37,519 nt of DNA, taken from positions 1 through 37,519 of the forward strand of contig NZ_JAUYGL010000014.1 in the NCBI RefSeq assembly GCF_030689745.1, read 5' to 3'. This document shows, one piece after another, positions 9,013-27,233 of the stretch. Source of the DNA: Devosia sp. (GTDB taxonomy: Bacteria; Pseudomonadota; Alphaproteobacteria; Rhizobiales; Devosiaceae). Position numbers and translations under genes: made by a program. How positions within the stretch are numbered: the stretch's first letter is position 1; every line of letters begins with the position of its first letter. The notes beneath the pieces were generated by a model, which was given only the letters and a program-made list of their open reading frames with translations, searched no databases and was not told where the DNA came from.

Positions 9013-9136
9013 TTCCGTCTCCTATTCGTGGCCACAATCGGCCGGGTAGGCGCCAACTAGTTAAAGCCGGCTAGACACCGTGGTCTGAGGTGGAACTGGT
9101 GCTGGCAGTGCACCATCCTCTACCACAGTTTCTGCA

Positions 9137-9175
9137 CCCGGCCAGAGCCGGGCATATTCCGGCTCACACCGGAAT
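9137..9175 (-). other. Two adjacent hairpins after nusG
   Basis: The 172-bp gap between nusG and rplK begins with two back-to-back perfect stems: ATTCCGG/CCGGAAT (9156-9175) and CCCGGC/GCCGGG (9137-9152). No U-tract follows, so read-through from nusG into rplK is expected. The pair could be a processing site or part of the leader bound by L1 in rplKA autoregulation. The structures are seen; the role is inference. Confidence 0.45.
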
Positions 9176-9184
9176 TCTTGAGTG

Positions 9185-9715
9185 TCAGACCTTTTCGACC
9201 TGACTGTATTCGAGCTCCACCGGGGTGGGACGACCAAAGATCGACACTTCCACCTTGAGGCGGGCGCGCTCTTCGTCGACTTCTTCCACCACGCCATTGA
9301 AGCTGGCGAACGGACCGTCCGAAACGCGGACATTCTCGCCCACTTCGAACGATATCGATGGCTTGGGATGCTCAACGCCTTCCTGCACCTGCTGCAGAAT
9401 GGCCTGGGCCTCCTTCTCCGAAATCGGCATCGGCTTGTTGTCCGAACCGAGAAAGCCGGTAACCTTCGGGGTGTTCTTGATCAGATGGAACGCCTCGTCG
9501 GTCATGTCCATCTTCACCAGCACATAGCCCGGGAAGAACTTGCGTTCAGCATCGACCTTGCGGCCGCGACGGATCTCCACGACCTTTTCGGTCGGCACGA
9601 TCACGTCTTCAAACAGATGGTCAAGCTTCTTTTGCGCAACCTTCTGGCGGATGTCTTCCGCCACCTTGCGCTCGAAGTTCGAGTAAGCTTGAACGATATA
9701 CCAGCGCATGGCCAT
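9185..9715 (-). CDS. nusG: Transcription antitermination/elongation factor NusG
   Basis: Complete 176-residue NusG, which binds the beta' clamp helices of RNA polymerase through its N-terminal domain and Rho or ribosomal S10 through its C-terminal KOW domain. The N-terminus MAMRWYIVQAYSNFERKVAE and the motif FFPGYVLVKMDMTDEAFHLI mark the NGN domain. The KOW domain contains VSDGPFASFNGVVEEVDEER. The ATG is preceded by AGGAG. It lies 41 bp after secE and upstream of rplK, as in most bacteria. Identity is certain. Confidence 0.99.
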   Translation of the reverse strand: MAMRWYIVQAYSNFERKVAEDIRQKVAQKKLDHLFEDVIVPTEKVVEIRRGRKVDAERKFFPGYVLVKMDMTDEAFHLIKNTPKVTGFLGSDNKPMPISEKEAQAILQQVQEGVEHPKPSISFEVGENVRVSDGPFASFNGVVEEVDEERARLKVEVSIFGRPTPVELEYSQVEKV

Positions 9716-9756
9716 AAAGCGTCGCCGCTCCTAGATGTTGTGTGTCCGAGACCCGA

Positions 9757-9951
9757 CTAGCGGATCGAAAGCATCAGCCCGACAAGCCAAGAAATGAGCT
9801 GATCGGCTGCGAGAAAAAACAGGCTGGCGGCCAGCACCAACACGATCACCATAATCGTGGAGATCAGGACTTCGTTTCGCCCCGGCCAGATGACTTTGGA
9901 AACTTCCTGCCGCGTCTGCTGCAGGAACTTGATTGGGTTCTTCACGGCCAT
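9757..9951 (-). CDS. secE: Preprotein translocase subunit SecE
   Basis: SecE is the small essential membrane subunit that stabilises SecY in the SecYEG protein-export channel. I chose the ATG at 9951, giving MAVKNPIKFLQQTRQEVSKV and 64 residues, which matches the usual length of single-span SecE proteins. The open frame extends upstream to 10011, but that N-terminus would be atypical. The conserved amphipathic segment QEVSKVIWPGRNEVL precedes one transmembrane helix (about residues 34-60). It is the first gene of the nusG-ribosomal protein cluster, with a putative promoter about 75 bp upstream. Confidence 0.95.
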   Translation of the reverse strand: MAVKNPIKFLQQTRQEVSKVIWPGRNEVLISTIMVIVLVLAASLFFLAADQLISWLVGLMLSIR

Positions 9952-10025
9952 CAACGAATCTACTCTTTGGTGTTTTGGTGCAAAACCAAAGGCCGCGCAG
10001 GAATCCCGCACGGCTGGAATGTGGG

Positions 10026-10054
10026 TTTCTAGAGAAACTCCCGGTCAAATGCAA
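10026..10054 (-). promoter_or_regulatory. Putative sigma70 promoter of secE-nusG
   Basis: On the minus strand TTGCAT (10049-10054) and TAGAAA (10026-10031) are spaced by exactly 17 bp, a reasonable -35/-10 pair. Transcription would start near 10019 and leave about 70 nt before secE. Pattern recognition only, so moderate confidence. Confidence 0.45.
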
Positions 10055-10191
10055 CAGCCCACCCGCACAATTTGCCCGACGGGAAAACCCTGCTGATGAA
10101 CGACGCCTGCAGGGCGGCGTGATTCGTCCTTGATTCGGCATGGCTACGGGACTTAAATGGGTCTGGAACGTGTGACGAATGGAGGCGTGCC

Positions 10192-10473
10192 ATGACTGCA
10201 GGTACCGCGTCGTTCGAAGTAAAGGCCTGTGAAATCGCTTTTTACGCCCCCCACCCGACCATTGAGGGGCGGGTAACGGGTGTCGTGCGGGTCCGCATTG
10301 AAGAACACTTCATGGGCAATATCAGCCGCTATGCCCTTGATCTCAAGGTGAAAGCCGATGTGCCAAGCGCAACGGCCGACCAGGTACGCACGGCGTTGCT
10401 GGCTCATGCGGCCCATCAGCTCAACCGGCTAAAGGCCCGTCATTCCGACAGGATGCCAACCGCCGCTGAATAG
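10192..10473 (+). CDS. Small conserved-looking hypothetical protein (93 aa)
   Basis: I do not recognise this family. The 93-residue product has no signal peptide, membrane segment or cysteine. It alternates charged and hydrophobic residues in a beta-rich pattern (SFEVKACEIAFYAPHPTIEG, then RVTGVVRVRIEEHFMGNISR) and ends in an Ala/Leu/His-rich helix (QVRTALLAHAAHQLNRLKAR). The ATG has a strong GGAGG seven bases upstream, which supports real translation. It stands alone on the plus strand between secE and tRNA-Trp, both on the other strand. A small cytoplasmic protein of unknown role is the most that can be said. Confidence 0.75.
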   Translation: MTAGTASFEVKACEIAFYAPHPTIEGRVTGVVRVRIEEHFMGNISRYALDLKVKADVPSATADQVRTALLAHAAHQLNRLKARHSDRMPTAAE

Positions 10474-10530
10474 AATTTGCGGCGGCAGGCCGGAATTGCT
10501 GGATGTGTTGGATATATTGGTTTGAGTGCC

Positions 10531-10606
10531 TGGCAGGGGCTGGGGGACTCGAACCCACGACCCTCGGTTTTGGAGACCGATGCTCTACCAACTGAGCTAA
10601 ACCCCT
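10531..10606 (-). tRNA. trnW: tRNA-Trp (anticodon CCA)
   Basis: A 76-nt tRNA with the 3' CCA encoded. The acceptor stem is AGGGGTT paired with AGCCCCT (one G-U pair), the D loop reads AGTTGGTA, and the anticodon CCA lies at 10571-10573 in the loop CTCCAAA. The T arm contains TTCGAGT, with one T-C mismatch in its stem. tRNA-Trp upstream of secE-nusG is a common bacterial arrangement. Confidence 0.97.
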
Positions 10607-10619
10607 TCAGACGAGGCTG

Positions 10620-10648
10620 TGTCTAAATGTAAAGCGGGCGCTTCGCAA
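10620..10648 (-). promoter_or_regulatory. Putative promoter of tRNA-Trp
   Basis: On the minus strand TTGCGA (10643-10648) and TAGACA (10620-10625) are separated by 17 bp, and the tRNA 5' end lies 13 bp beyond the -10 box. Spacing and position fit a sigma70 promoter for a short tRNA leader. Confidence 0.5.
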
Positions 10649-10682
10649 GACCCTTCCCAACCTCAATGCCCACTTCCCGGCC

Positions 10683-11075
10683 CTAAGCCCAGATATGGGG
10701 CAGCAAGGGCAGTGCCATGAGTACCAGACCGCCCAGCGCCACTGTGAAGCTGATCGACCGCCAGGGCGACAAAGCGGCCATGTAGCACACCACGTGCCCT
10801 GCCCGCCCCAGCAGGTAAAGCATTGCCCCGGCCAGGCTGACCCAGCCCTGCTCGCCCAGCACAATCGCCAGCACGGCGAACACCAGAAATATCGGCAGCG
10901 TTTCCTGCAGATTGCCCAAGGCCCGCCGCGCCCTTGCCAGTTGCAGACTTGGCTCGGGAAGGTTATCGCGCGGCCCCATCTGCGCCTGCGGCCCGACCTG
11001 CTGGGTCAAATAATAGCCCGGCAGGAAAACCTGCACCAGCAAGAGCAGCAGCACGAGAAAGATGAGCGCCAGCAT
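10683..11075 (-). CDS. MAPEG-family integral membrane protein
   Basis: A 130-residue protein with four predicted membrane helices (MLALIFLVLLLLLVQVFLPG, about 51-68, 77-98 and 107-127). The conserved segment RARRALGNLQETLPIFLVFA and the later LLGRAGHVVCYMAALSPWRS are characteristic of the MAPEG family (membrane-associated proteins in eicosanoid and glutathione metabolism). Bacterial members have few assigned substrates, so no reaction is proposed. It lies alone 76 bp upstream of the tRNA-Trp gene on the same strand. Family assignment is fairly secure; function is unknown. Confidence 0.85.
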   Translation of the reverse strand: MLALIFLVLLLLLVQVFLPGYYLTQQVGPQAQMGPRDNLPEPSLQLARARRALGNLQETLPIFLVFAVLAIVLGEQGWVSLAGAMLYLLGRAGHVVCYMAALSPWRSISFTVALGGLVLMALPLLPHIWA

Positions 11076-11239
11076 TGATCAACCTTGTCACGTTGGGAGT
11101 GTATGAGAATAGTCACGTCGCGCGGCCTTGAACAGATCACCCCGTGCGAATGGCGTACAGCGTCGTGTTTTGCACCAGCGAGACAGACCGGGCCGCTATG
11201 GCGTCAGCCCGATTGAACCAGCACTGAATGCGGGCCCCT

Positions 11240-12427
11240 TCAGGCGACCGACCAGTAACCCGGCTCACCGCGGCGACCAAGCCAGAGAATCGCCAGCCCC
11301 GCCATGGCCAGCCAGGGCAGCAGCGCCAGGTTGAGATTTTGCCAGCCAATGGTGTTTTGCAGCACACCAGCGCTGAGTGAAGCGAACAGGCCAACCACGA
11401 AGATGGTAAAGTCATTGGTTGCCTGCGCCTTGCCCTTTTCGGCGGTGCTATAGGCGCGGGTCAGCAGATTGGTGCCACCGATATAGAGAAAATTCCAGCC
11501 TACCCCCAACAGCACCAGGGCGGCGCTGAATGAATAGAACCCCGTGCCGGACAGGGTGATCAAGACGTGACAGGTGAGCAGAACAACGCCGGCGAGCATG
11601 ATCTGCAACACGCCGAAGCGGGCAATCAGCGAACCGGTGAAGAACGACGGCAGGAACATGCCGAGCACGTGTAACTGGATGACCGTGGCCGTGGCGCCCA
11701 GACCATGATTGTGGTGCACCATGGCCAGCGGGGTCGCCGTCATCGCCAGGATCATGACGCCATAGCCGATTGTCGCGCCAAACAGCGCCACCAGATAGAT
11801 CGGCTGCCGCACGATGTCGATGAGCGGTCGAGCCGAGGCCCGTTCATCGGCGGTATCGAGCGCCTTGGGAACATTGACGCCAAGCAGCACACCCACTGCC
11901 AGCAGGGAGGTGAGGGCCAGGAACAGGAACGAGGCAGTGTAGGCCGGTTGCAGCAGGTCGCCACCCAGCCGGGCCAGCAGCGGCCCTACCAGCGCGGCGA
12001 CGACCCCGCCAGCCAGCACCAGCGATATGGCGCGCGGCTTGAAGGCGGTGTCGGCAACTTCAGCGGCGGCAAAGCGATAGAACTGGGCGAAGCCCTGATA
12101 GGCGCCAGCCAGAAACGTGCCGAGACAAAGCAGCAGCAATGAGGAGGTGAGCATGCCCGCAGCCGCCAGCAAACCGCCCAAAGTGCCCAGGCTGGCGCCG
12201 GCAATGAACCCGACCCGGCGCCCGACCCGAGCCATCCACATCGATGCCGGCACGGTTGCCACCGCAGTGCCAAGGAACATGGTGGCGATCGGCGCCGTCG
12301 CCCATTCCGGTGATGGCGCCAGGATACTGCCGGCCAACGCGCCAATGGTCATCACCAGCACCGACACGATCTGAAACAGCGCCTGCGCCGTGGCCAGCAG
12401 GAAGACTTGTCGGTGCATGGCTTGCAT
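11240..12427 (-). CDS. Major facilitator superfamily transporter
   Basis: A 395-residue inner-membrane transporter with about twelve hydrophobic helices and the MFS loop motif between helices 2 and 3 (MWMARVGRRVGFIAGASLGT). The ATG at 12427 has GGAG upstream; a TTG at 12457 could add ten residues. The second half includes LHVLGMFLPSFFTGSLIARF and a long hydrophobic C-terminal segment. Substrate cannot be read from sequence; drug or metabolite efflux is common in such single-gene MFS proteins. It ends 165 bp from the MAPEG gene, with nothing supportable between them, and borders the accessory region on the other side. Confidence 0.9.
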   Translation of the reverse strand: MQAMHRQVFLLATAQALFQIVSVLVMTIGALAGSILAPSPEWATAPIATMFLGTAVATVPASMWMARVGRRVGFIAGASLGTLGGLLAAAGMLTSSLLLLCLGTFLAGAYQGFAQFYRFAAAEVADTAFKPRAISLVLAGGVVAALVGPLLARLGGDLLQPAYTASFLFLALTSLLAVGVLLGVNVPKALDTADERASARPLIDIVRQPIYLVALFGATIGYGVMILAMTATPLAMVHHNHGLGATATVIQLHVLGMFLPSFFTGSLIARFGVLQIMLAGVVLLTCHVLITLSGTGFYSFSAALVLLGVGWNFLYIGGTNLLTRAYSTAEKGKAQATNDFTIFVVGLFASLSAGVLQNTIGWQNLNLALLPWLAMAGLAILWLGRRGEPGYWSVA

Positions 12428-13018
12428 GGTTGCGTTTTCTCCGTTTGGGATGGTCAAGGCACGGCGGCTTACCCTGCGGCCACCCCATTCGGGCCTGCCG
12501 TCTTGCAGGCATTAGTCTTGAACTCTTGCGCCCGCAACTGGGATCCGCGACGACTTAGGTGCTTCGCGCAAAATGCCGGCCTACCTGCCGGATGCAGATG
12601 GTCGCCAGGCTGCCAGCGCGGCGATTACCGCACCAAGCAATATCGCCCCAATGCCCGTTCGGCTTTACCCATGCTCACCGCCAATAAATTGGCGATGGTA
12701 CCGGCCGATTCAGATCAGTCGGCACACAGCGTTTCCGCACCCGGGAATGCGACCCAAAGGCGTTACGGTTGCATGCCACAACAATCGGCTAGACCATTGA
12801 TTTATTTGATAAAAGAGATTTGGCTGGGGAACCTGGATTCCATATGAGAACTAGTTCTCACAGTAAGCCGTTGAAAATGCTAAGTAAAAGTCGATCCCAA
12901 AAACGCTTGTGTGTAAGGTTGAGTGGCAGTCTGTGTGAAAGTTCCACCCAATCGGGAATGTAGTCAAGTGTCCACTCCAATGCCGGTCACTGTGCACTAG
13001 AAGTCGTGGCAGGGTTGC
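12428..13018. other. Gene-poor left edge of the accessory island
   Basis: About 590 bp with no intact gene. On the minus strand near 12590-12680 one frame reads QFIGGEHG, a stop, then SRTGIGAILLGAVIAALAAW, which resembles the last helix of a DMT/EamA-type transporter; this could be a decayed fragment but is too short to be sure. The AT-richer part from 12780 to 13018 shows no gene, tRNA or att-like repeat that I can recognise. It probably marks the boundary between core and island. Confidence 0.35.
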
Positions 13019-13694
13019 TCAATCGAAAGGCAGCGAGCCATCGGCTCGAGGTGCAGGCACTGGAATGTTGTCTCTCTGAAACATTGCGGTCATGGCTGAC
13101 ATGACTGCATCGCCCCCACTGCTAGTCACGCCATCCGCCACCATGCGCTGGAGATCACCAGCATCGGCCTCGGTGTCGCCCATCGGCCAAAGTGCCGAAG
13201 TCGCTAAACGCCGCTTGCGCTGCATGAGGCTATGCAACAGGCAGTCGAAAGAGTGCTCACGAAATCCAGGGTGAATGGACATGGGCACGTGCACGCTGAC
13301 TGGCCAAAGCGGCGGTGTGTGCCGCGCCAGGCTCATAGCTGCCGATAAACACGGCAACCATGGTGTTGAGGAACGTTCGGTGATCGCTGCTTTCGATTTC
13401 CTCGCAGTAAAACTTCCGCAGGGCCGACAGGTCAGTCCGCTCACGACGATCCTGATCAAACAGGGCAACGGCAGCCGTGGTGACGAGCGACATCCTTGTG
13501 TCGCTCCAGTCGCCCGTTTCCAATAGCATTAGCATCTCCTGGACGAGTCGCTCCCGATCTCGCTCTGGCGGTTCAACCACCACATCCGGCCATCTGGCCA
13601 GGATTCGATCGGTGGTCGACGCCAACCTATTGATCGCCGCCAGCGCCATTGGTTGAAAGCTTGCCGGCTTGGCTAGGAAGCGCGTGAGGCTCAT
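13019..13694 (-). pseudogene. Frameshifted ZorC-like gene remnant (Zorya)
   Basis: The first part (13257-13694) encodes 145 residues, including RFYCEEIESS-like helical sequence and FLNTMVAVFIGSYEPGAAHT, before a stop. The reading continues in another frame from about 13270 to 13019 (FREHSFDCLLHSLMQRKRRL through to PAPRADGSLPFD), also with coding-like codon use. I read this as one frameshifted gene. Its ATG overlaps the stop of the upstream OmpA-domain remnant (ATGA), the arrangement expected for zorB-zorC, and the N-terminal part resembles EH-signature ZorC proteins. ZorC is known as a DNA-associated effector component of Zorya anti-phage systems. At this size it cannot be functional. The family call is tentative. 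Confidence 0.45.
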
Positions 13695-14134
13695 GGGCTC
13701 TCCAATTCAACGCCGGCCTGCAGCTCGTTACGAATGCGCTCGATTTCTTCCGAACTGCCAGGCGTGAACATGATGATGCGCAAATCGATGCGGCGGTTGG
13801 TGGAGCGCCCTTCGGATGTCTCGTTGTCAGCAATCGGTCGCATCTTGCCGTATCCAGCGACGGAAAGCACAGGTTGTTCGCGGTAATTTTGGTGGCTCAC
13901 CAGATCGCGCTGGTTGCCCGCCATTTCCGCATAGGTGGTGTTGGCGCGTTCAGTAGATAACCGAAGATTGGAGATATCAGCACCGGTGGAGTCGGTATGT
14001 CCCTCTATTTGTACTGCCTCGATAATCACTCCGTTGGGGTTGCAGCCGGTGTCCCAGGCAGAAAGTGGCCCAAGCGTGTAGCAGGGCAAAATCTCGTTCA
14101 GGCGAGCGGCAATGCGCTGGACGACCAGAACGGT
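13691..14134 (-). pseudogene. Truncated ZorB-like protein (OmpA/MotB C-terminal domain)
   Basis: The frame opens after a stop at 14135-14137 and encodes about 147 residues of an OmpA-like peptidoglycan-binding domain: VVQRIAARLNEILPCYTLG, then VQIEGHTDSTGADISNLRLS with TERAN, then VLSVAGYGKMRPIADNETSE and GRSTNRRIDLRIIM. The Asp of GHTD and the Arg of STERA, which bind diaminopimelate, are present. The N-terminal membrane anchor is missing, and the only possible start is a TTG inside the domain (14089). In Zorya, ZorB is the MotB-like stator partner of ZorA; the LPCY segment and the overlap with a ZorC-like gene favour ZorB over a generic OmpA protein. It was apparently cut off by the neighbouring vsr cassette. 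Confidence 0.6.
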
Positions 14135-14205
14135 TCACATCTAATCAGGACGAAATCTAACGGCTTAGTAGCGGCTGGAAAGGAGCAGATTGCTTGACAG
14201 CTCAT

Positions 14206-14634
14206 TCAACGAGAAGCGCCTTTGATCTCCTCGCCAAGTGAAATCGCCTTGGCGGTCACCTTCGCGAATGAAGCCAGCTCACATTCCCACGCGACGAGTA
14301 CCTGCCATCCCGCGGCTTCCAATTGATCAATCACAACCGCGTCCCGGCGAACATTGCGGTCGAACTTTTCGACCCAGAATTTGGTATTCGACTTAGGCGT
14401 GGTCGCCACCTTGCAACCCTCGTGCCGGTGCCAGAAGCATCCATGAACCAAGATCACGGTGTGGTACGTCGGGAGGATGATATCGGGCTTCCCGGGAAGC
14501 CGGCGCCCGTGCAACCTGAATCGAAACCCAAGGCGGTGGAGTGCCTTCCGCAGGGTAACCTCGGGGAGGGTATTGGCCGATCGGATCCGAGACATACGTT
14601 CAGATCGTTGGGCCGGTGTAAGGGTGTCCACCAC
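14206..14634 (-). CDS. vsr: Very short patch repair endonuclease Vsr
   Basis: A complete 142-residue Vsr, which nicks 5' to the T of T:G mismatches arising from deaminated 5-methylcytosine in Dcm-type sites. The sequence begins with SERMSRIRSANTLPEVTLRK and carries GKPDIIL with catalytic Asp51, then LVHGCFWHRHEGC with His64, His69, His71 and the zinc-site cysteines, and ends with the conserved WECEL. All residues known to be needed in E. coli Vsr have counterparts. It starts at GTG 14634, five bases after the stop of the giant ATPase gene and without an evident ribosome binding site, so coupled translation is likely. It is the last gene of the five-gene methylase-ATPase operon, consistent with protecting the 5mC sites made by its own methylase. 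Confidence 0.96.
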   Translation of the reverse strand: MVDTLTPAQRSERMSRIRSANTLPEVTLRKALHRLGFRFRLHGRRLPGKPDIILPTYHTVILVHGCFWHRHEGCKVATTPKSNTKFWVEKFDRNVRRDAVVIDQLEAAGWQVLVAWECELASFAKVTAKAISLGEEIKGASR

Positions 14635-14639
14635 GCTTG

Positions 14640-17600
14640 TCAGGCCCCGTCCTTGCCCCTCAGCGCATCCAGCTCAAAGAACGGCAAGCCCCGGACTACC
14701 TCGCCGGAAACATCAAACGACTTGTATAGGCACTGGTGTACTTGGAGCGACTTTACTCGTTCTGCCATCTCAGCGGCGCTGCTCGTCAGCCCCAGCGCGG
14801 ACAACTCAGCAGGCGTAACGTTGGGGACCTTGTGGATGAACCAAGTAAGCAGCGGCTCGCGATAGTCCGTCGCGTTCACCTTGAAATGCCGTAAGTATTG
14901 GGAGGCAAGGATAACGCCGGTCCCGAACTCCCGGCCTTGCAGGAGTAGTTTGCGCAGCACGTCAAACTCATACCGCATGATATTGTCGGCTTCGTCGACC
15001 AGCAGATAGGAATCGACAGCGCGAAGCTGGGGATCGCTACCAATGAAAGAGCGTTTGGGCGTCCGTAGCATGTTCTCGTAAAACATATTTAGCATGACCG
15101 CGACAAGCATGTTCTTGCTGCGATCGTCCTGGCCCAAGGCATCTAGCGAGATAACCACTACGCCATCCAGAAACTCGTCGAATGGCTTTGTATCGCTAGT
15201 CTTGGCAGCAAATACCTCCATATCTACGAGGTCGTCGATGATCGACATGGGCGCGTCAGACTTGCCATCTAACAACTCGGCATAAGCAGCATGAACATCA
15301 TAAAGCGTGGGTTGTTGCCCATGTGGGCATGCGTCATACGCAGCACGGACCGCCCGCTTGAGCTTGTCGCGTTGCACGGGCCCGATGCCAGAATAGATCT
15401 TGTCTAGAACGTCAGCAAAGAAACGGAACCGATCAAGCCACGGCGCCGGTGCATCGCCAATCTCGCTCGTGTCGAACAAGTTGAGCGGTAGTTTGTATGG
15501 CTTCACAACGCGCGCGCCAGTCGCCTTGACGAACTCGTCACTGCTATAATCGCGCTTGTAGTCAAAGATCAGAAAGCGTGGTCGGATCCCACGGTTGGCG
15601 GCTGACGCGTCTGAGATCTGCATTATCAGCGACTTCAACAGTTGCGTTTTTCCCGTGCCCAGATCGCCGACCACGCCCATGTTGAGTTGGTTTAATCGGG
15701 TATCAGAAATATTTAAACGGACATCGCCGGGTCGAAAGCTGTCAACGGTGGTGCCGATCGAGAGCACAATCCCGGCGGGAGCTTCGTCGGGGATGGAGCC
15801 ACCGGGCGTTTGCTCGAGGAGAATTGGCCGCACTTCTTCCACTCTAGTCCCCGTTGGCGCCTCGGATGTAGCTTCAGCCTGCAAATCCGCACCAGATTGC
15901 ACAAGATTGGCGGTGAACGTTCTGTCGGACGGGAACAAATCCCACTGACCCACCCTGGCTCGGACACTTTCGTAGAAGGCCAGCGGGTCGCCGGCGATAA
16001 CCTGTCCCGCGTCGGTGCTTCCGATCGTGATTGTCTCTTCAAAACCGTCGTCGTCACGGTCGCGCACGCCGCTGCGTGGACTATCGTCCACGATTATCAG
16101 ACGTCCATGCTGGTCGACCGAAATGCACGGCCGAGGGTCGAGAATGGCGGACGCTATGCGCTCATGGAGGGACGCCCATTGTGCCTCTCGGCCGACCACA
16201 TCTGGATGCTGGCTATAGACTCGCATTCCAAAACCGATAATCGAAAGCAGCAGGTGTTGGAAACCAAGCTTCCAGGCAACAGGCTGGCCCTCGTGTGGGA
16301 GCATACTCGTCAAGAGCCGAGAGAACGTTCGGGCTTGCTCCAATGCCTCATCCACCTCCGATGGTGGGAAGATAGAGCCTGGCCGGCATTTCACCTCGAT
16401 AGGCGTGAGATGGATCTGGACTCCCTCTAGCCCCAGCTTGACGCCGACCACCAAAAAATCGGGGCGCGATAAAGAGCCATCGTTTTTATCCTTGCCCAGG
16501 GATTTAGCCAGATCGGAGAAATACCCCCGAAAGGGATCGACCGGCACAATTATGCACACGGTAACGTCCTCGCCAGTGCCATCGATCACGGACAGGAGGC
16601 TTTCGCCAATATTTGATAACCGAAAGCGATCCTGCAGCAATCGAACGGCCACGAACATGCCGAGGTCGCCAGTTGCTCCGGCATTATCGCCAGCAAGGCC
16701 CCTAATCGTCGGTATTCCCCGGCGAGCGATCTCAAGCAGGACATCCTGAACTTGATCAGGGTCAATTGCTGCGCATCCTGGAAGGCGCGCGAGCGCCTTT
16801 GACAGGGCTTCGAGATCCGCCTGCTTGACCCGCGACAACAGGTAGTAACCATTGGTATCGCCCGCCCGATGGGAATAGGACGGCATATCGTAATCCCAAA
16901 GGTAGGCGTCCTCCAGCCATCCCCCTAAAAAGCAGGCGGGATCGATCGCTGAAGACGAAACCGCGACGAAGTCAGTCCGGCGTGTTTCAAGCATGTCGCG
17001 CACGGCGTTGACATTCGGAGCGAACCGCATGCCGGTGCGACGGTCGCCAAGGCTTTCCATAGAGCCGACACAGGCAGCGACCTTGTCGGCAAGTACGTCG
17101 CCGGAGGTCGACCCCGCCACGGATTGGCGTGTCTCGCTCAGGAACGCGCCAGGAAGCTGCCGCCGCACTCGATGTCGAAGCAAGCCACCGTAGCCGAGTG
17201 GGGATCGACCAGAAACAGGCGAGGCGCTGGGCTCCGACATGTCGAGCTGGGCGATGATCCCGAGATCGGGACGAGCGCGTGGTGGTTGGCCATCGAACCA
17301 TCGCACGCTATTTCGAGTATCCTCCGACAGGTTGGCTATCGTTGCATCATCAGGCCGCGAGTCATCATTCCGGTGGTCGTAAATCTCGACAAAACGCGGC
17401 CCGGCCGCCCGGCGTGGAGCGCGGCCTTCGCCATCTCGGTACCGATCCGAGCACCAGCTGATAAGCCCCTCGTTGCAGGCATCCGTTGTGCCGCCAGCAC
17501 TAGCGACCACGACGCCTATCACCGGCTTTGCCGATAGTAGCCCCGAGACGTCTTCCATCGCACGAGCGACCTGAGCGGCGCTAAATCCGACGGAAATACC

Positions 17601-20093
17601 ACCGACCGAAATGCCGAAGGCGTCGCCGAAGGGGGCAATTTTCGACCGGCTAGGAAGGCGACCAAGTCGGTCCCCATTCCACAGAACGGACCAATAGTCG
17701 CTGCCATTTTCTACGGCAAGAAAATCGACTTTCTCTATGCCGCCAGGGGATCGAAGCGAAAGCGTCAGGAGGTCTGGGACGCAGTCTGGATCGAGGACAC
17801 TTACGGCCGGACACGGATTGCCGCCAGCCTCAGCCTCTAGCAGGACGCCCTGGGCAACCGTGTGCCATGCAAGGCGCAGCGGATGGAGCGGCGACAGCAC
17901 GATAGCATCCGGAATCCGTGAGATGGTTCTGCGGTCATCCTCCAGCGAGGTGACGATACCAACGTCGACCCAGCATGCAACGTCGGGGTCTGCGACAAGC
18001 CATGCTTGGTAGGCGTCCAGATATTGCTCGATGAGGGCCCGGAAGCTCTCGTCGCTTGCGAGCCACCTTCCGAGCTCAGCCGACTCAGTCAGCCCGGTTT
18101 GGTCGCCAGTGCCACGAATGCGCCCCGCTAGTTGCTCCCGCGCTACCACGAAACCCATTGGCGGTTGGAAATCGGCGGCGTCCGGACGCGGATCTTGCAG
18201 GAAACGTCCCGTGGAGAATAGTGGTCCGGTGCCAGTGCCCCATGTTGGCTGCACCCAGGCATCGACGTAGTCATCGGCGAGCACTATTGGGAGGTAGGAT
18301 CTCCCGGCAGAGTCCTCGGACAGCATCCAATCCTGCAGGCTCGACGCTCGGGCGGTCCGGTTCAGCTGGACAACCGGCTTCGCCTCCAAGGGCTCGATCA
18401 ACCGACGATTTGCTCGGATCAATCTTTCAAACTCACTCCGGCAGCCCCGCTCGACGACATCTTCGACCGCGAGGAATACCCTGCAAGTCTCGTGCGAAAC
18501 CGAGCCATCCGACACCGGCCGGCTAAAACCAATGTCAACCTGATAGTTCGTTTCTGCTTCGACTTCGACCTGATGGAATCCCTCCCGCACGGAACGGACG
18601 ACAAGCTGCTGGGTGGCGTTGATGCCATTCAAGCCATCTTGGGCATCGTCGGCGGTCCCCATCGCTAGGGCATCTACTTCAACCCCTGGCGACGTGAATA
18701 CCAAAAGTTCATACCGACCGCTGCCGGGCAGGACTAAGCTCGTCTCCAGTTCGGGCGCGCCCTTGGCGCGACGCGCTGGTTTGCGCGGTGGCGTCAGCTT
18801 GCGTGCGAGCCGGCAGGCGATGAAAATACCAGGCGCCCAGGTGGCAAGCGACACGACCTTGATCGCGCCGGGCTTGAAGCCGTCTGCGAAAGCCGCGTAC
18901 CGAAGGGGCGTCTTGTGGCTTGGCGGCGCCTGATCGAGGTAAACGGCCTCTTCGTCACCAACCCGGACCTCCGATAGCTTGTTGCCCTTGCCGCGCTCGA
19001 TCGAGACCGCGGTACCCCTCGCGTCCGGGCCGACTGTCTCGAATGTCAAAGCAACATTGCTTTGGACGAGGATGGGCATGCCCTTGCCAAGCGGAACGAT
19101 GGCATTTGAGCAGCCCATCCGGATATCGCCCTGCGCGGTGGCATCCTCGGTCAGTAGCTCAGACCACTTTTCAGCTGTTAGGGCTCTCCACCAATCGGGG
19201 GCGACCGGCATATCCAAGCCACTTTCTGGAGCATAAAAGGCAGCCGTCGCTCGTTCGAATGCCGTTGGAAGGTCGCACGTCTCACGCAAATGGCGGAGGA
19301 ACATATCGAGATGGTGACTATCTTCTTCGTTGGCATTTTCCTGCGCACGTCGAATGCCGGGTGTGAACCCATCGGACATGGCATCAGCGATTTTCTCCAG
19401 AACCGCCACTTGCTCCCGAGAGGATACCGTACCGTCACGCATCGGCGGCATCCCGCAGGCAAGGCTGACTTGCTCGGCAGGCGTGAGGCCAGCTAGGCCC
19501 GGCGTCGCCGAGAACAGGCGCGAGAGTACCTTCCAGGCGGCGGCACGCTGGGTTCTCTCGGCATCCATTTCATCCGCGGCAGAGGCCGCCCTGCCAACCA
19601 AAGTGCGCGCATCGTCGCGCTGCTGCTGTTCCAGTATCCCTGCTTGCCTAATGCCGACGCGTACCAGTTCCTGGATAAACTCGTCTCCCCACCAATCCTC
19701 GAACGGTACGTTGCCCCCATTGTTGGCGGCCGCCACTCCAAACTCATCGGTCGTTGACGTCACCGATCGCATGCTGTGCTGGCCTGGCGGGACAAGGGCC
19801 AGAAACGTCGGCTGCGAGGGTGAATTGCGAAGGTTCAGCAAATGGGTATCGTCGCAACGACCAGACACGCCGACAGGCGGATTCTCCTCGCCCGCCGACA
19901 AGCTTGGCAGTTGAAGCAAGATAGGCACCCGCGGACTAACGCCTTCATCGGCATTTAGGAGGTCGAATACCTCGGTCAGGACTTCCTTCTGGGGTCCGTG
20001 GAATATCAGGCGCACCTCGTCCCGATCGTCGGCAGAGGAGTTCGAAAGCTTGTCGCGAATTAGGTCCGCGATAGTGGATGCCAAGCGTTTCAT
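14640..20093 (-). CDS. Giant DptH-like HerA/FtsK ATPase with PD-(D/E)xK nuclease site
   Basis: A single 1817-residue protein. The C-terminal domain (about 1455-1790) is a HerA/FtsK-type ATPase: Walker A GDLGTGKTQ with Lys1482, Walker B YLLVDEADN with Asp1700-Glu1701, then LLQGREFGTGVILASQYL. The middle contains SRPDFLVVGV with Asp1212 and PIEVKC with Glu1233 and Lys1235, the spacing and setting of a PD-(D/E)xK nuclease. The first 1200 residues are not recognised. Size, position as last of three genes and the Walker B region resemble DptH of the Dnd phosphorothioation restriction arm DptFGH. The ATG overlaps the stop of the preceding gene (ATGA). I infer a DNA-translocating nuclease that forms the effector of this operon. 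DptH assignment is by recall of the family, not by a search. Confidence 0.8.
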   Translation of the reverse strand: MKRLASTIADLIRDKLSNSSADDRDEVRLIFHGPQKEVLTEVFDLLNADEGVSPRVPILLQLPSLSAGEENPPVGVSGRCDDTHLLNLRNSPSQPTFLALVPPGQHSMRSVTSTTDEFGVAAANNGGNVPFEDWWGDEFIQELVRVGIRQAGILEQQQRDDARTLVGRAASAADEMDAERTQRAAAWKVLSRLFSATPGLAGLTPAEQVSLACGMPPMRDGTVSSREQVAVLEKIADAMSDGFTPGIRRAQENANEEDSHHLDMFLRHLRETCDLPTAFERATAAFYAPESGLDMPVAPDWWRALTAEKWSELLTEDATAQGDIRMGCSNAIVPLGKGMPILVQSNVALTFETVGPDARGTAVSIERGKGNKLSEVRVGDEEAVYLDQAPPSHKTPLRYAAFADGFKPGAIKVVSLATWAPGIFIACRLARKLTPPRKPARRAKGAPELETSLVLPGSGRYELLVFTSPGVEVDALAMGTADDAQDGLNGINATQQLVVRSVREGFHQVEVEAETNYQVDIGFSRPVSDGSVSHETCRVFLAVEDVVERGCRSEFERLIRANRRLIEPLEAKPVVQLNRTARASSLQDWMLSEDSAGRSYLPIVLADDYVDAWVQPTWGTGTGPLFSTGRFLQDPRPDAADFQPPMGFVVAREQLAGRIRGTGDQTGLTESAELGRWLASDESFRALIEQYLDAYQAWLVADPDVACWVDVGIVTSLEDDRRTISRIPDAIVLSPLHPLRLAWHTVAQGVLLEAEAGGNPCPAVSVLDPDCVPDLLTLSLRSPGGIEKVDFLAVENGSDYWSVLWNGDRLGRLPSRSKIAPFGDAFGISVGGISVGFSAAQVARAMEDVSGLLSAKPVIGVVVASAGGTTDACNEGLISWCSDRYRDGEGRAPRRAAGPRFVEIYDHRNDDSRPDDATIANLSEDTRNSVRWFDGQPPRARPDLGIIAQLDMSEPSASPVSGRSPLGYGGLLRHRVRRQLPGAFLSETRQSVAGSTSGDVLADKVAACVGSMESLGDRRTGMRFAPNVNAVRDMLETRRTDFVAVSSSAIDPACFLGGWLEDAYLWDYDMPSYSHRAGDTNGYYLLSRVKQADLEALSKALARLPGCAAIDPDQVQDVLLEIARRGIPTIRGLAGDNAGATGDLGMFVAVRLLQDRFRLSNIGESLLSVIDGTGEDVTVCIIVPVDPFRGYFSDLAKSLGKDKNDGSLSRPDFLVVGVKLGLEGVQIHLTPIEVKCRPGSIFPPSEVDEALEQARTFSRLLTSMLPHEGQPVAWKLGFQHLLLSIIGFGMRVYSQHPDVVGREAQWASLHERIASAILDPRPCISVDQHGRLIIVDDSPRSGVRDRDDDGFEETITIGSTDAGQVIAGDPLAFYESVRARVGQWDLFPSDRTFTANLVQSGADLQAEATSEAPTGTRVEEVRPILLEQTPGGSIPDEAPAGIVLSIGTTVDSFRPGDVRLNISDTRLNQLNMGVVGDLGTGKTQLLKSLIMQISDASAANRGIRPRFLIFDYKRDYSSDEFVKATGARVVKPYKLPLNLFDTSEIGDAPAPWLDRFRFFADVLDKIYSGIGPVQRDKLKRAVRAAYDACPHGQQPTLYDVHAAYAELLDGKSDAPMSIIDDLVDMEVFAAKTSDTKPFDEFLDGVVVISLDALGQDDRSKNMLVAVMLNMFYENMLRTPKRSFIGSDPQLRAVDSYLLVDEADNIMRYEFDVLRKLLLQGREFGTGVILASQYLRHFKVNATDYREPLLTWFIHKVPNVTPAELSALGLTSSAAEMAERVKSLQVHQCLYKSFDVSGEVVRGLPFFELDALRGKDGA

Positions 20094-21601
20094 GCGGTTG
20101 ATTCCTGGCGGTTGGGAAATGGCGGCACGAGCAGCATCCCGCTTTCAGCATCTGGGCTATCGAGCACCAACCCCAGCATGCGCAATTGATGGCCAAGGTC
20201 GTTCGTAGCGATATCCCTATAGTCGACAATCGCCCCATATCGAGCCAGATGTTGCGACAGGCGGCGCACCGACCGAGGACCTGTCGTGCCCGCCAATGAG
20301 CAATGCACCAGCGCCAGTACGCTGACTGGTCCCAGCCCAACAACCCAGGGACTCGAATTGCTCGTGCCGCGCTTTCGCAGTGAAAAGCCCTGATCATAGC
20401 CGCGCAGGACGGGGTTGGCGGCCTGTCGCTGCCCGAGGACATGGCGAGCGAACTCCATGATGTTCGAGCCAATTCCTTTCTTGCATAACAGCGTTCGGGT
20501 CTCGCGTTCGGATACGTCTGCCAATACATCACGGAGCCCAGTTGTCTCCACGGCACTAGCCTTTACCCGGACAAGCTCGCAGACTTCAGCGACGGCCGCG
20601 GCCGATGACAGGGAGGTTACCTCGACACCGGCTGCCTGCAGCGCCCACAAGGTTGCGTTGATACCTAGTCTGGCTTGGAGGAAAGCTGACGCGCGGTCCT
20701 TAATGCCTGGAAGTGCGCGGTCACCATAGGACAGGAACTGGAACGCCTTGGGGTAAATCGCCGAACGCGCGGCAGCAGCGTCGGCGGGGCCGACACCGTC
20801 GAGCGCTCCCCTGATACATTCCCATGATTTAGCATGAACTTCGCACAGCCACGCCACGTGCGCTACTGCGGCGAGCCTAACGATCGCCTCGAGAAGACTC
20901 GTCCATTGTCGACGGGTCATCGAACCCTTGGCGGAGATGATGGAGCCTAAGTCACGAACGAATTGTCGCGCCGGATAGTCGAGGCCGTCCCGGTCCGCTG
21001 GGTCGAGAATAGATTGCTCGCCAGGGTCAACGATCGACCAGGCTGGTTGGGGCGACCAAGCTTCGATCTCAGCTTGAAGGAAACGAGCAAAAATGTCGTC
21101 GTCTTCGTCCACAGACAGTGCGTCGAACAAGGCCTGCCAGATCAACACAGCTGCTGCCGCGTCAGGAGATCCTAACCAGACCATGCGCCTGACTAGCGCC
21201 CCAGCTGGCCATGAATTGCTGCTCAGTCGTGCAGATCCAGAGAAAGTCGCCGCCTGAGGCACTAGCGGCGTGACCTGCAGAAACCGCTTCGAGGATTGGT
21301 TTGGAAGCTTCGGGCTCTCCAGAACCGAATGGAGCAACACGTGGAATGTGTCAGCGTCAAGAGCTGCTGCGTCTGGTTGTTGTGTTCGGTCGCGATACCG
21401 CTGGACTTCCCTGTCGAGATCACGACCGCGTTGTGGCACGGTGCGTTCGGTTGCTCCCTCTAGGCCGACGTGGCGATAGAGGGACGAAAGGATCACCTCA
21501 GAACTCGCGTATTCGGGAGCCGGCGACATCGCGAGCGCTGATTCCTGGTAAGCAGCGTGGGAGGTGCGCCAGGGCTCGTCCCTGAACTTGGATAGTGTCA
21601 T
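20090..21601 (-). CDS. DptG-position protein of unknown fold (503 aa)
   Basis: A 503-residue protein between the two ATPase genes, overlapping both by ATGA. I see no P-loop, nuclease or membrane motif. It is largely helical. The C-terminal part (VLRGYDQGFSLRKRGTSNSS, then WVVGLGPVSVLALVHC and RRLSQHLARYGAIVDY) looks like a winged-helix DNA-binding region, and it ends with LRMLGLVLDSPDAESGMLLV. Its position matches DptG in dptFGH operons, and the perfect coupling implies fixed stoichiometry with its neighbours. Role as a structural or DNA-binding subunit of the complex is inference. Homology to DptG itself is plausible but unproven. Confidence 0.65.
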   Translation of the reverse strand: MTLSKFRDEPWRTSHAAYQESALAMSPAPEYASSEVILSSLYRHVGLEGATERTVPQRGRDLDREVQRYRDRTQQPDAAALDADTFHVLLHSVLESPKLPNQSSKRFLQVTPLVPQAATFSGSARLSSNSWPAGALVRRMVWLGSPDAAAAVLIWQALFDALSVDEDDDIFARFLQAEIEAWSPQPAWSIVDPGEQSILDPADRDGLDYPARQFVRDLGSIISAKGSMTRRQWTSLLEAIVRLAAVAHVAWLCEVHAKSWECIRGALDGVGPADAAAARSAIYPKAFQFLSYGDRALPGIKDRASAFLQARLGINATLWALQAAGVEVTSLSSAAAVAEVCELVRVKASAVETTGLRDVLADVSERETRTLLCKKGIGSNIMEFARHVLGQRQAANPVLRGYDQGFSLRKRGTSNSSPWVVGLGPVSVLALVHCSLAGTTGPRSVRRLSQHLARYGAIVDYRDIATNDLGHQLRMLGLVLDSPDAESGMLLVPPFPNRQESTA

Positions 21602-23709
21602 CGGCTCCGAGTCTCCTTGCGCACGGCGAAGCCCGATCGCCGTTGCACGATCGACGTGCCGCTTGATCCGATCCGAATGCGGGCGCGGTCGAGGACGAGC
21701 CTGTCCCGGACGATCGGACCGGAAAGACGCGCTCGCGTCGTGTCCAACAGTGCAAGCACGGTGCGCGGAAGCGATGCGACGGACATGCCGTTCTCTAGTT
21801 CTTTAAGTGCCTTAAACAGGTCATAGGTAAGCGCAATCGGTTGCTCCGATCGGCCGTCCCCTACCTTCAAGAAGCAAATAGGGGACGCGGGCCTGCCGGT
21901 CTTCTCAGCATTAAGCGGCTGCACCGAGCGCGATGGAACGACCAGAGTGGCCCGGCGGATCATGGGCGGCAGCGGCTGGCCAAAGGTAGTCGTCAGGGAA
22001 ATCTCGAAGTCATGAGTCTGATTGAGGAGCTGTTCCACCTCATGTGCCACGTCGAATAGATCGTCACCAGCTGTGTCTTCGACTACGCGCTGGAAATCCA
22101 TGAGGATCGGCGCATCGAGTACGGCAGCCGTCCGGGCACCAAGCGCTCGGCGGACAAGGCGACACGCAAAATCGCGAACAAAGCGCTGGACATTGGTCGC
22201 CGATGCGGGACGCTTCCTGCGTACTCCACCGACCGACAATGCAGCGTCCAGCTTGGCAAGTCGTTCGACCAGGTCTACTTCTAGCCTCGAAAGAACCTGC
22301 AGCTTACGGATGAAGTCCAGACCTTCCAGTACCGAGCGGCTGAACCTGACGTCGAGCTCGCGCAACGCGAAGCGGGTGTTCTTTGTGGCCTGCACCTCTG
22401 TGTCTGGATCAGTGAGCGCAGGATCGAGAAGTTCGGAGAGGCCTTCGAGTGCGCTGCTGATCATAGCTGGCAGGTAAGCCGTTCGACGCGAAGACAGGAA
22501 CCATTGCAGGCCCATTGCAGTGTTATCGTCTTCGAGACCAAGTTCTTTGATGTCGTGCAGAAGTGAGGGACCAGCGTCGCGCTCCCAGCGATGGAAGAGA
22601 GCATGCTGATACTGGGCCGTAACCAATTGGAAGATAGCGGTCGACTGTTCCTTCGAAGGCTTTCCGCCACGGCGCGCAGTCTCGTCCAGCCCCACAAGCT
22701 TCCCCGCCCACTCGCAGGGCTCGAGGCTGGCCTCGCGAGGTGAAACGCGGTGGCCGGCAAGCAAGTACGAGACCAAGGAGAATAGATCGCGAAAGCTCCA
22801 GCGCTTCCCGCTCGCCACTTCAAACCATCGAAGGATTTGGAGAAATGACGTTTCCTCGCGTTCTCGCGAAAGTCGTTCGCGGCTGCCGCAAAATGGACAG
22901 GAGGCGCCGCCAGCGCACGACCCTGCCGCTGGCCATTTGTTGTCATCGAGCGCAGTGCGCAAAAGGCTTCGGGCAGGTGCCTCGCCGCCCGCCAAAGGAG
23001 CAACTAGCAACGACTCCGCGTCCATGGGCCATACGGCGACGTCGGGGAAGCCGGCGAGTGGCCAGCAAGATTGGGCGTCGGGAGCCAAACTGACGGCGCG
23101 CGTCACGGCCTCGAGCAGGCGACGCGAACTTTCTCGGTCAGTGTCGATCGCCTCAATCAGCGCATCATCAAGCACTCCCCGGTTCACGCAGCACAAGTAG
23201 GCGTCCCTCGGACCAGCTGCCTGCACGGCGTCGAGTTCTTCGAGCAATATCTGGGCGGCTTGCTTACCTCCGGCATGCACTACGGCGGTAGCATCTTGCA
23301 CGATCGACAAGCCCAGTTGCGGCAATCCGGGCCTTAGAACCGCAGTATCAACGCGGACGAGGCGTGGAACTACAGCGCCTTCGGGCGGGAAGAAGGATTT
23401 TCTGAGCTCGCCCTCAAGTTCGCCGTCGGCGCCCAATGCCGCGTCGAGCCAGCCCACAGTAGATTCTATCGCCTCGGTCTTGCCATTTCCCGGCCCGCCA
23501 ACGAGCAACAAGATGCGTGGGGCACGACCAGGCCCGGACGCGATTGATCCAGCCCACGCTTCCAGCCGATGCAAAAGGTTTGTCTCGAACACGTCCTTGC
23601 CTGGCCGGCCACTGCTGGCATCGAATAAGCGTCGAACGCCGCCCGACCGGTTTCCGGCCCAATTCAGGAGTTGCGCCGGAAACGGCGCTACTATCACTTC
23701 CTCCTCCAA
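21598..23709 (-). CDS. DptF-like P-loop ATPase
   Basis: A 703-residue ATPase. Walker A is GGPGNGKTE with Lys77, in a context (ILLLVGGPGNGKTEAIESTV) typical of AAA/STAND-type enzymes; a beta strand with a sensor-like Asn follows (AYLCCVNRGVLDDALI, about 170-185). A cysteine cluster at Cys265, Cys271 and Cys274 (ASCPFC) may bind zinc. The C-terminal half is helical and of unknown fold. As the first of three coupled genes before a DptH-like protein it corresponds to DptF, although it seems longer than the DptF proteins I recall. The start is either TTG 23709 (AGGAGGGG upstream) or GTG 23697 (GGAGGAGG very close). Nine base pairs separate it from the methylase gene, so it is in the same operon. 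Confidence 0.7.
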   Translation of the reverse strand: MEEEVIVAPFPAQLLNWAGNRSGGVRRLFDASSGRPGKDVFETNLLHRLEAWAGSIASGPGRAPRILLLVGGPGNGKTEAIESTVGWLDAALGADGELEGELRKSFFPPEGAVVPRLVRVDTAVLRPGLPQLGLSIVQDATAVVHAGGKQAAQILLEELDAVQAAGPRDAYLCCVNRGVLDDALIEAIDTDRESSRRLLEAVTRAVSLAPDAQSCWPLAGFPDVAVWPMDAESLLVAPLAGGEAPARSLLRTALDDNKWPAAGSCAGGASCPFCGSRERLSREREETSFLQILRWFEVASGKRWSFRDLFSLVSYLLAGHRVSPREASLEPCEWAGKLVGLDETARRGGKPSKEQSTAIFQLVTAQYQHALFHRWERDAGPSLLHDIKELGLEDDNTAMGLQWFLSSRRTAYLPAMISSALEGLSELLDPALTDPDTEVQATKNTRFALRELDVRFSRSVLEGLDFIRKLQVLSRLEVDLVERLAKLDAALSVGGVRRKRPASATNVQRFVRDFACRLVRRALGARTAAVLDAPILMDFQRVVEDTAGDDLFDVAHEVEQLLNQTHDFEISLTTTFGQPLPPMIRRATLVVPSRSVQPLNAEKTGRPASPICFLKVGDGRSEQPIALTYDLFKALKELENGMSVASLPRTVLALLDTTRARLSGPIVRDRLVLDRARIRIGSSGTSIVQRRSGFAVRKETRSR

Positions 23710-23718
23710 GATCCCCTC

Positions 23719-25047
23719 CTAGGCAGTTGCGACGGCCGGTGATCGCACCGCGCGGTCTCCGAAAAGCGACTTCTTGAGTGCAACCTCCACAAGGAGATTG
23801 CGAACAGCAATGCCGATTGCGCGAGCAAGGTAGGGGGGTACCGCATTTCCAACCTGTGTGTAGCGCGGGCATTCCTTCGTGCGTCGCTGACCACCGGTCG
23901 TGTATTTTCCCTTGAACGCAAACCAGTCCGGGAACGATTGAAGCCGAGCGGTTTCGCGAACAGTCAAAATGCGAGGTTCGCAATAATGGAGGATGTCGTC
24001 TGGGAGAGTGGTGATTGTCGGGGCGGGTTCGTTGCTTGCCATCGGATAGATCCGATGCTTTTTAAGACCGTATGTTTTACGGTTTTCGTCACTCATCCGG
24101 ACCCCCCTGCGACATTCTGCGAGGATGCGGGCGAACCGTTCCCTCACATCGTCGCGGTGCCGAGCGAGGCGCATGCTATCCATTCCGCCATGGTGCCCAG
24201 CTTGCATTAGCTGCTGGTATGTAGTCGTCGGCGCGCCATATTTTACTTCGTGGAACCCACGGCCAGAATTCGGATCAGTACAGTCGATCATCTCTCGGCC
24301 AACTGTCTCCAAGTCCGACAAAGCACTTGAGGCGCTGATTGCCTCAGGAAGACCAAGCTCTTTAAGCTGAGCAAGTCGCGCTTCCTCGAGCAGCACGAAC
24401 ATCCGCGCGAGACCGCCGTCCAGCCATTCGCAAAGATCCTTGCGGATGCCGACTGCGATCAGGCGTGAGCGACGCTGGGGCACGCCAAACCGGGACGAAT
24501 CGACGAGCATGGCCTCCATCTTGTAGCCTGCCGCATCTAGGCTATCGACGAGCTTGTCGTAGAAGGACTTGGGCTTTTCTACCTGTTCGCCAGGTATTCT
24601 TAGGTCCACGACGTTTCGCCGCGCATGGGCGACGCGCATCCCTGGTACGTTCTCAACGATAAGGGCCTGCGGTTGAAGAGCGTCCACGACCTCAACATAT
24701 TTCTCGAATAGCAAGTTGCGCGGGTCATCTTCGACGCGCCGTCCTGCGAAGCTAAAGCCTTGGCAAGGAGGGCCTCCGGCCAAGACGTCGATTGCCCCCC
24801 TCAACTTAGCGAGCTCATCCTTGTGCTGAGCGAGGAGGTGTTCAATGTCCCACGCTTGCTTTGCGAGCCATTTCGGCCACTCGAAGGCGACGCTGGACGA
24901 TTGATTTTCGATGAAGTTGGCCGAGAAGGTCTCGAATGCCATCGGATCGCGCTCGATAGCGAACTTGCCTTTTAGTCCCGCCTGGGACAGTCCGAGCGAA
25001 AAGCCCCCGCATCCTGCGAATAAATCGGCGAAACTATAGGGCTTCAT
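23719..25047 (-). CDS. dcm: DNA (cytosine-5)-methyltransferase
   Basis: A complete 442-residue C5-methylase with all key motifs in order: motif I DLFAGCGGFSLG (residues 8-19, binds S-adenosylmethionine), motif IV GGPPCQGFSF with catalytic Cys95, motif VI ENV (132-134), motif VIII QRRSR (191-195), motif IX RETARLQSFPDWF (364-376) and motif X QVGNAVPPYLARAIG. The target-recognition region (about 235-345) contains YGAPTTTYQQLMQAGHHGGM and VRMSDENRKTYGL; its site cannot be read from sequence. It is the first gene of the operon and would methylate host DNA, while the downstream Vsr repairs its deamination products. GAGG lies about 14 bases before the ATG. The symbol is used for the family, not for CCWGG specificity. 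Confidence 0.96.
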   Translation of the reverse strand: MKPYSFADLFAGCGGFSLGLSQAGLKGKFAIERDPMAFETFSANFIENQSSSVAFEWPKWLAKQAWDIEHLLAQHKDELAKLRGAIDVLAGGPPCQGFSFAGRRVEDDPRNLLFEKYVEVVDALQPQALIVENVPGMRVAHARRNVVDLRIPGEQVEKPKSFYDKLVDSLDAAGYKMEAMLVDSSRFGVPQRRSRLIAVGIRKDLCEWLDGGLARMFVLLEEARLAQLKELGLPEAISASSALSDLETVGREMIDCTDPNSGRGFHEVKYGAPTTTYQQLMQAGHHGGMDSMRLARHRDDVRERFARILAECRRGVRMSDENRKTYGLKKHRIYPMASNEPAPTITTLPDDILHYCEPRILTVRETARLQSFPDWFAFKGKYTTGGQRRTKECPRYTQVGNAVPPYLARAIGIAVRNLLVEVALKKSLFGDRAVRSPAVATA

Positions 25048-26234: not shown

Positions 26235-27233
26235 ATGACGCTCAATGAGCTGCGCCAATTTATGTTGGACCAGACTAAGGACATGAAGTTTGACTTGGCT
26301 GCCAGCACCCAGGTTGACTACCGACGCATCATCGAGGCCGTCGATGATGACTTCGTCGCCTATCTCCGTTCGGCACCCAACAGCACTTTCTACAAAAGAA
26401 AAGCTGCAATCCTTTGGCGCCTGAGGTTCTCTTTGGCGGAGAGCATCACCAGCATTGATGAAGCTTCGGCCCACGGTGAGACCAATTTGGGTTGGCGACT
26501 GGATCAGGCCCGCGTTTACGCGGAGTTGATCAAAAGCGTAGCCGCTGAAACACGGAAAAAGTCCCGCTCACAAAAGGGTAAAAGTAAAAAGATTGGCCTC
26601 AAGGCATTAAGCAAGAAGGGCGATTTCCGGGAACGTCTTGTTACGGCGGCCGGGAAAGCCGGAGTCGTCGGAATACTCCTGCTGTCGATCGCGGGTGTGC
26701 GTCCGGCAGAGATCGCCAAAGGTGTTGCTCTAAAGGCTTTTGGTGAACACGGGCTGGAAATCCACATCAATGGGGTAAAGCACACCCAAACCACCGGTCA
26801 CGAGCGGCGAGCGCAAAGACATGATGCGCGCAGGTGGAGCCTTTCCGCGAAGCTGTTGACCTTTGTCAAAAAGGCCGGCGGCAACTTGCTGTTTTCCCGC
26901 AGCCCCGATTTGTTACGCGACGACATCAAAAGAGCGGCCGCGCGTGCAAAGTTGCCGCTTACGATCAGCCCTTACACGCTTCGTCACTGTTTTTCTGGAG
27001 ACCTAAAGAAAGCAGGTTGGTCTCCCGTTGAGATAGCGAAAGCTATGGGGCATGCCTCGACAAGGACTGGCGGGCGGTACGCTCGAAAGCAATCAGCTGG
27101 AAGCGGCACCAGCAGTATGACGGCGGTGTGGGCTTCTGGCGAGGTAAGGGAGTTCGACAAGCCAACAGCAGAAGAATTCGCCAGAATGGGGCGTTCAAAA
27201 TCCGAAGACTTGGCTATTGAGGGGCCTCAATAA
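26235..27233 (+). CDS. Tyrosine recombinase / site-specific integrase
   Basis: A 332-residue phage-type integrase that would cut and rejoin DNA through a 3'-phosphotyrosine. The catalytic domain shows Arg156 in AGVRPAEIAKG, a Lys near 182, YTLRHCF with Arg250 (first box His replaced by Tyr247), MGHAS with His273, and GGRYARK with nucleophile Tyr282. The N-terminal SAM-like core-binding domain spans about 1-110, followed by a Lys-rich linker (KKSRSQKGKSKK). The ATG follows a weak GAGGG. Upstream tandem repeats and a hairpin array may be its sites; downstream is a broken toxin-antitoxin pair. Codon use appears less GC-rich than in the core genes, suggesting foreign origin. Probably intact. Confidence 0.88.
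   Translation: MTLNELRQFMLDQTKDMKFDLAASTQVDYRRIIEAVDDDFVAYLRSAPNSTFYKRKAAILWRLRFSLAESITSIDEASAHGETNLGWRLDQARVYAELIKSVAAETRKKSRSQKGKSKKIGLKALSKKGDFRERLVTAAGKAGVVGILLLSIAGVRPAEIAKGVALKAFGEHGLEIHINGVKHTQTTGHERRAQRHDARRWSLSAKLLTFVKKAGGNLLFSRSPDLLRDDIKRAAARAKLPLTISPYTLRHCFSGDLKKAGWSPVEIAKAMGHASTRTGGRYARKQSAGSGTSSMTAVWASGEVREFDKPTAEEFARMGRSKSEDLAIEGPQ

Follow-up and report, generated by a model that had tools for sequence, protein, structure and literature searches.

A C5-cytosine DNA methylase and a Vsr mismatch endonuclease are found here on either side of three genes that resemble the DndFGH (DptFGH) restriction arm, and the question arises as to which DNA such an arm would attack and which mark would spare its host. 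For DndFGH itself, the discrimination between self and non-self is debated, because only some of the phosphorothioate sites carry the modification and because modification genes are missing from many FGH loci (PMC10853773). The window, meaning the whole stretch of 37,519 nucleotides analysed, carries the five genes on its minus strand in the order M-F-G-H-Vsr, separated or joined by 9 bp, a 4-bp ATGA overlap, another 4-bp ATGA overlap and 5 bp; an earlier sequence-only reading had described these one-strand ORFs and their joins, and all are in place. The genes and the segments that matter below are as follows.

23719..25047, minus strand: C5-cytosine DNA methylase (M), 442 aa (PF00145, 4.9e-54; TIGR00675, 8.7e-44)
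21598..23709, minus strand: F, P-loop NTPase of the SspF/DndF group, 703 aa, TTG start (profile-profile comparison)
23476..23505, minus strand: Walker A segment of F, residues 69-78 (G71-K77 identical in 67/67 F rows)
22888..22917, minus strand: cysteine cluster of F, C265, C271 and C274, possible zinc site (conservation; zinc binding is presumed)
20090..21601, minus strand: G, subunit with a predicted DndG fold, probably DNA-binding, 503 aa (predicted structure)
14640..20093, minus strand: H, DndH-like nuclease-translocase, 1817 aa (PADLOC DndH, 231 bits; DptH 7es4_A, 5.2e-46)
16335..16466, minus strand: PD-(D/E)xK nuclease motif of H, residues 1210-1253, RPD...EVKxR...Q (H alignment)
14670..15695, minus strand: C-terminal HerA/FtsK ATPase of H, residues 1467-1808 (PADLOC, 7es4_A, H alignment, hhalign)
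14206..14634, minus strand: Vsr mismatch endonuclease, 142 aa, GTG start (TIGR00632, 2.7e-40; solved E. coli Vsr 1cw0, 1.8e-29)

The two outer genes are what the sequence-only reading took them for, as the Pfam and NCBIfam profiles (TIGR00675 being the dcm superfamily) and the match to 1cw0 confirm. M contains the C5 methylase motifs PPCQ, ENV and QRRSR, and it has the conserved motifs expected of the methylase in a C5-methylation restriction-modification system. When simple patterns were applied to 64 adjacent methylases, ENV was present in 64, PPC[QR] in 61, motif X in 59, motif I in 55 and motif VIII in 51. Vsr conserves the HGCFWH core motif of the E. coli enzyme, as in Dcm-Vsr pairs, but unlike in those pairs the two genes flank a three-gene nuclease-translocase module. 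Two further C5 methylases are encoded in the same genome, outside the locus.

The three middle proteins had been called DptFGH-like. This description stood for H by sequence, for F by profile-profile comparison and for G by predicted structure only, and it has to be narrowed: the module is not DptFGH proper, because it is matched by none of the curated models of DndF and DndG, and because F is nearer, in profile comparison, to SspF than to DptF. For H, PADLOC DndH models match the C-terminal part, residues 1467-1807 match the solved DptH, and the H family profile aligns to six canonical DptH sequences with an hhalign probability of 100; the nuclease region alone scores 78 against DptH (E 1.7e-5, 51 columns), and the N-terminal 560 residues, at 4.3, are not convincingly similar. 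The architecture of DndH, a restriction endonuclease domain and a C-terminal HerA/FtsK ATPase in a protein of about 1700 aa, is present in H, and the active-site residues are intact: R1210, P1211, D1212, E1233, K1235, R1237 and Q1253 are identical in 64/64 rows of an alignment of window, plasmid and genome copies (ORFs of at least 1600 aa, cut or broken copies left out), in which both Walker motifs A and B are nearly invariant and R1721 and Q1732 are the same in every row. Family H compares poorly with SspH (probability 14), and aligns over 1083 columns (98.8) with the H proteins of L109, L111 and L113, three loci in which F is enlarged. The canonical sets came from eight dpt loci (eight F, seven G and six H sequences, L083 being left out of G and H and L084 out of H for lack of an intact ORF); L077 was dropped from the alignments as a repeat of L008, and matches H10 and H12 were left out of the locus set. 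Two Vibrio plasmid matches, L087 and L088, were set aside as conjugation-linked ATPase genes beside mobI.

F starts at a TTG codon a few bases downstream of AGGAGG. By itself it matches no PADLOC family at E <= 1, and no DndF appears among its Pfam and NCBIfam rows; one SspF model run against its own genome found nothing. The family F profile, however, reaches probability 95 (E 3.9e-8) against a set of three SspF sequences versus a weak 57 (E 1e-4) against canonical DptF, wrong-subunit controls giving at most 0.5 in this comparison and up to 4.2 in another; it also reaches 95 against the F of L110, a locus described below, and against the enlarged F of L109, L111 and L113. PADLOC SspF models match distant family members directly (L067, 5e-8; L072, 4.6e-6; L060, 5.4e-4). 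Taken with the ATPase scores of H, these values place F nearest the Ssp side and the ATPase end of H nearest DptH. The AF2 model of F has a pLDDT of 88.7. Across 67 rows (ORFs of at least 600 aa; truncated or disrupted copies, L071 among them, left out), G71-K77, D139, N176-R177-G178, C265 and C271 are invariant, and C274 is kept in 63, the three cysteines making a possible zinc site. Section 20 of PMC10853773 describes DndF as having an intact Walker A, a Walker B with asparagine and an optional zinc site; in outline F seems to fit, which is a likeness to that description and not a residue mapping on a structure.

G resembles DndG no better by sequence than it does the wrong subunit (hhalign probability 1.3, versus 1.2 for DptH); it has no PADLOC family at E <= 1 and no DndG among its Pfam and NCBIfam rows. 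Its predicted structure has the DndG fold, a feature of DndFGH, and from predicted structure only we assign G to the FGH type and regard it as probably DNA-binding.

The module has the three-gene F-G-H arm of DndFGH, with PD-(D/E)xK and HerA/FtsK domains in H, a P-loop in F and, as predicted, the DndG fold in G. Unlike DndFGH paired with DndABCDE, it is accompanied by a C5 methylase and Vsr. Its three-gene layout is likewise that of SspFGH, and its F is closest to SspF, along with the F of L110 and of the three enlarged-F loci; G and H match no SspG or SspH model of PADLOC, a library that recognises both in locus L106, and cytosine methylation would stand where Ssp, with SspBCD, has phosphorothioate. 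Might a dnd modification cluster elsewhere in the genome serve these proteins? The check covered DndC, the sole dnd or ssp modification gene searched: DndC has no match in the genome, and pairing with DndC-dependent phosphorothioate modification is not found there. Among the 50 searched of 64 related genomes, four have a DndC match at E <= 0.001 and one passes the cut-off.

Linkage was assessed with G as the sole query against the genomes of 84,980 species, which yielded 64 loci, a lower bound since the scan requires exact peptide patterns, and fewer than 64 independent events since some loci are near relatives. They span Alpha-, Beta- and Gammaproteobacteria, Phycisphaerae, Verrucomicrobia, Bacteroidota, Gemmatimonas and others. 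In 60 of the 64, FGH has a C5 methylase within 1 kb, and in 52 that gene is the immediate 5' neighbour in the same orientation; some of the 60 methylases belong to other C5 subfamilies and match the profile weakly. In 36 loci Vsr immediately follows H, in three it lies 5' of the methylase and in one further downstream; it is not directly 3' of H in 28, of which 20 have at least 2 kb of sequence there. The full M-F-G-H-Vsr order occurs in 35. As background, there is one methylase match in the 390,784 bp of the same loci that lie beyond 2.5 kb of the block. The grouping exceeds chance by far, and the linkage of the five genes, which the sequence-only reading had proposed to survey, is kept across genomes. 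No C5 methylase match was found in L065, L069, L075 and L060, the first two being cut at contig ends and L075 cut downstream. In a small control with the same profiles, neither a C5 methylase nor Vsr was found at any of eight canonical dpt loci; in one of these, L089, the genes upstream encode an adenine methylase and a restriction enzyme. Outside the 64, matches came from three Rhizobiaceae plasmids, from one viral contig (present twice, as L008 and L077) and from a Pseudoalteromonas plasmid with the methylase on the 3' side and no Vsr match.

Over 61 loci the distances of F, G and H co-vary at 0.98-0.99 and those of the methylase at 0.65-0.67, values not corrected for shared ancestry; which FGH windows track methylase divergence differs between the full and the core sets. 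Two loci do not fit well with a simple picture. In L016 (17309-18769), G is 86% identical to that of the window, yet a different C5 methylase lies on the opposite strand, with no Vsr match in the 2.6 kb left on the contig; a different methylase beside so close an F-G-H set is a poor fit with a fixed shared target. The other is L060 (17024-18253, 4530-6527), from an uncultured Verrucomicrobia, where an HNH endonuclease gene follows H and a reverse transcriptase gene lies upstream.

A second FGH lineage shows the same association. In L110 (G843:C1:940000-959999, 6686-17325), after an F-G-H set of the SspFGH type (PADLOC SspF 143 bits, SspG 43, SspH 301) come a C5 methylase, encoded on the other strand, and a Vsr. 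Judged by the distance between the FGH sets, the pairing in this single locus would have arisen separately.

MADS, made up of mad1-8, is a DNA methylase-linked system. MADS models were checked on one of the three enlarged-F loci, L113 (G814:C1:1368000-1387999), which matches mad2 to mad8, with mad6, mad7 and mad8 in the F, G and H places; there the counterpart of F forms the C-terminal part of a 1379-aa protein that carries kinase-like domains. The mad7 model also matches canonical DptG, at 206 bits. MADS, like the window, links a DNA methylase to an FGH-type arm, and methylation in place of phosphorothioate has precedent there, mad6-mad8 being FGH-like in the one locus checked. The methylase of L113, however, matches mad2 and Type I models and comes with a specificity-type subunit (mad5) and the F-kinase fusion, whereas in the window the methylase is of the C5 type, a specificity gene is absent and F measures 703 aa. 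The combination of mad2 with mad3-mad8 is not found in the window, where the sole mad match among the matches listed (for the methylase, the best 25 of 63) is mad8, at 40.5 bits in the ATPase domain of H (PADLOC).

We consider it likely that the five genes form a restriction-modification system in which 5-methylcytosine is the self mark and FGH acts on unmarked DNA. M would place its mark on a short host sequence, and F, G and H would assemble into a large complex in which G, whose fold is predicted to be that of DndG, reads the DNA together with parts of H, F binds nucleotide and exerts control, the HerA/FtsK end of H moves the DNA and its PD-(D/E)xK domain cuts or nicks wherever the 5mC mark is missing. 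The polarity of the mark in this model follows that of DndFGH and SspFGH, both of which are reported to damage hosts without their own modification and to act on unmodified DNA (PMC8092258). Vsr would serve solely to repair the T:G mismatches that arise by deamination of 5mC. In Caulobacter lacking a cytosine methylase, an SOS response is reported that depends on an unlinked Vsr-like protein (PMC12907096), and given this result Vsr might also raise the cost of losing M.

FGH could instead be a standalone machine against invaders, as proposed for decoupled DndFGH, with M and Vsr as passengers or serving another purpose. DndFGH is indeed said to stand alone and to be often uncoupled from DndABCDE (PMC10853773), L060 carries FGH with no C5 methylase match, and methylase divergence tracks FGH only moderately. 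Yet retention of a nearby C5 methylase in nearly all loci, sometimes from another C5 subfamily, and the repetition of the pairing on the FGH lineage of L110, make this reading unlikely in our judgment. Activation of FGH by 5mC, such that methylated host DNA primes the nuclease once infection is sensed, would recall SspE, which senses the phosphorothioate mark (PMC8092258, in part), and the invariant P-loop of F could bind a signal nucleotide; the same source reports DndFGH and SspFGH as acting on unmodified DNA, and the present data give no sign of stimulation by 5mC, so that we hold this possibility to be quite improbable.

The genes could also be unrelated defence functions that chance has packed onto a mobile island and that do not work together. 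An integrase gene lies beside the module, relatives occur on plasmids, and none of the other 200 relatives searched has a full-length H. The overlaps between start and stop codons, and a gene order shared by more than half of the loci over distant taxa, already disfavour such packing, to which we give very little credence.

Returning to the restriction-modification reading, the five-gene set recurs in many distant bacteria, and we could find no name for it in the literature searched. A C5 methylase, FGH and Vsr appear together in no title or abstract among the matches listed, supplements, preprints and most subscription journals lying outside that search; the word Vsr is absent from the main text of PMC10853773, and other HerA-based systems are described in PMC12839542. 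FGH may be a mark-agnostic engine, served by phosphorothioate in Dnd and Ssp, by a Type I-like methylase in MADS and, apparently more than once, by a C5 methylase with Vsr, G and the recognition parts of H being tuned to each mark; we put this suggestion forward tentatively, at slightly less than an even chance. The five-gene version would bring Dnd, Ssp and MADS together as forms of a single engine. Being compact, with a single standard C5 methylase, it would make the self/non-self question testable with ordinary methylation tools.

Among near relatives the block is scarce: F is found in one of 385 genomes of the class, that of the window itself, and H has a match in three of 201 relatives, at full length in the same genome only. 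The tRNA-Trp gene has no second copy of at least 15 bp elsewhere in the whole window. The module lies on the opposite side of this gene from rpoB and L10 (window 2129-12457, 26235-27233), with an MFS gene on one flank and a phage-type integrase on the other. On the Pseudoalteromonas plasmid (L012; 11707-13448, 17633-24385), genes for a methyltransferase-domain protein and an HNH protein precede F, H is split over two ORFs, and the C5 methylase follows H.
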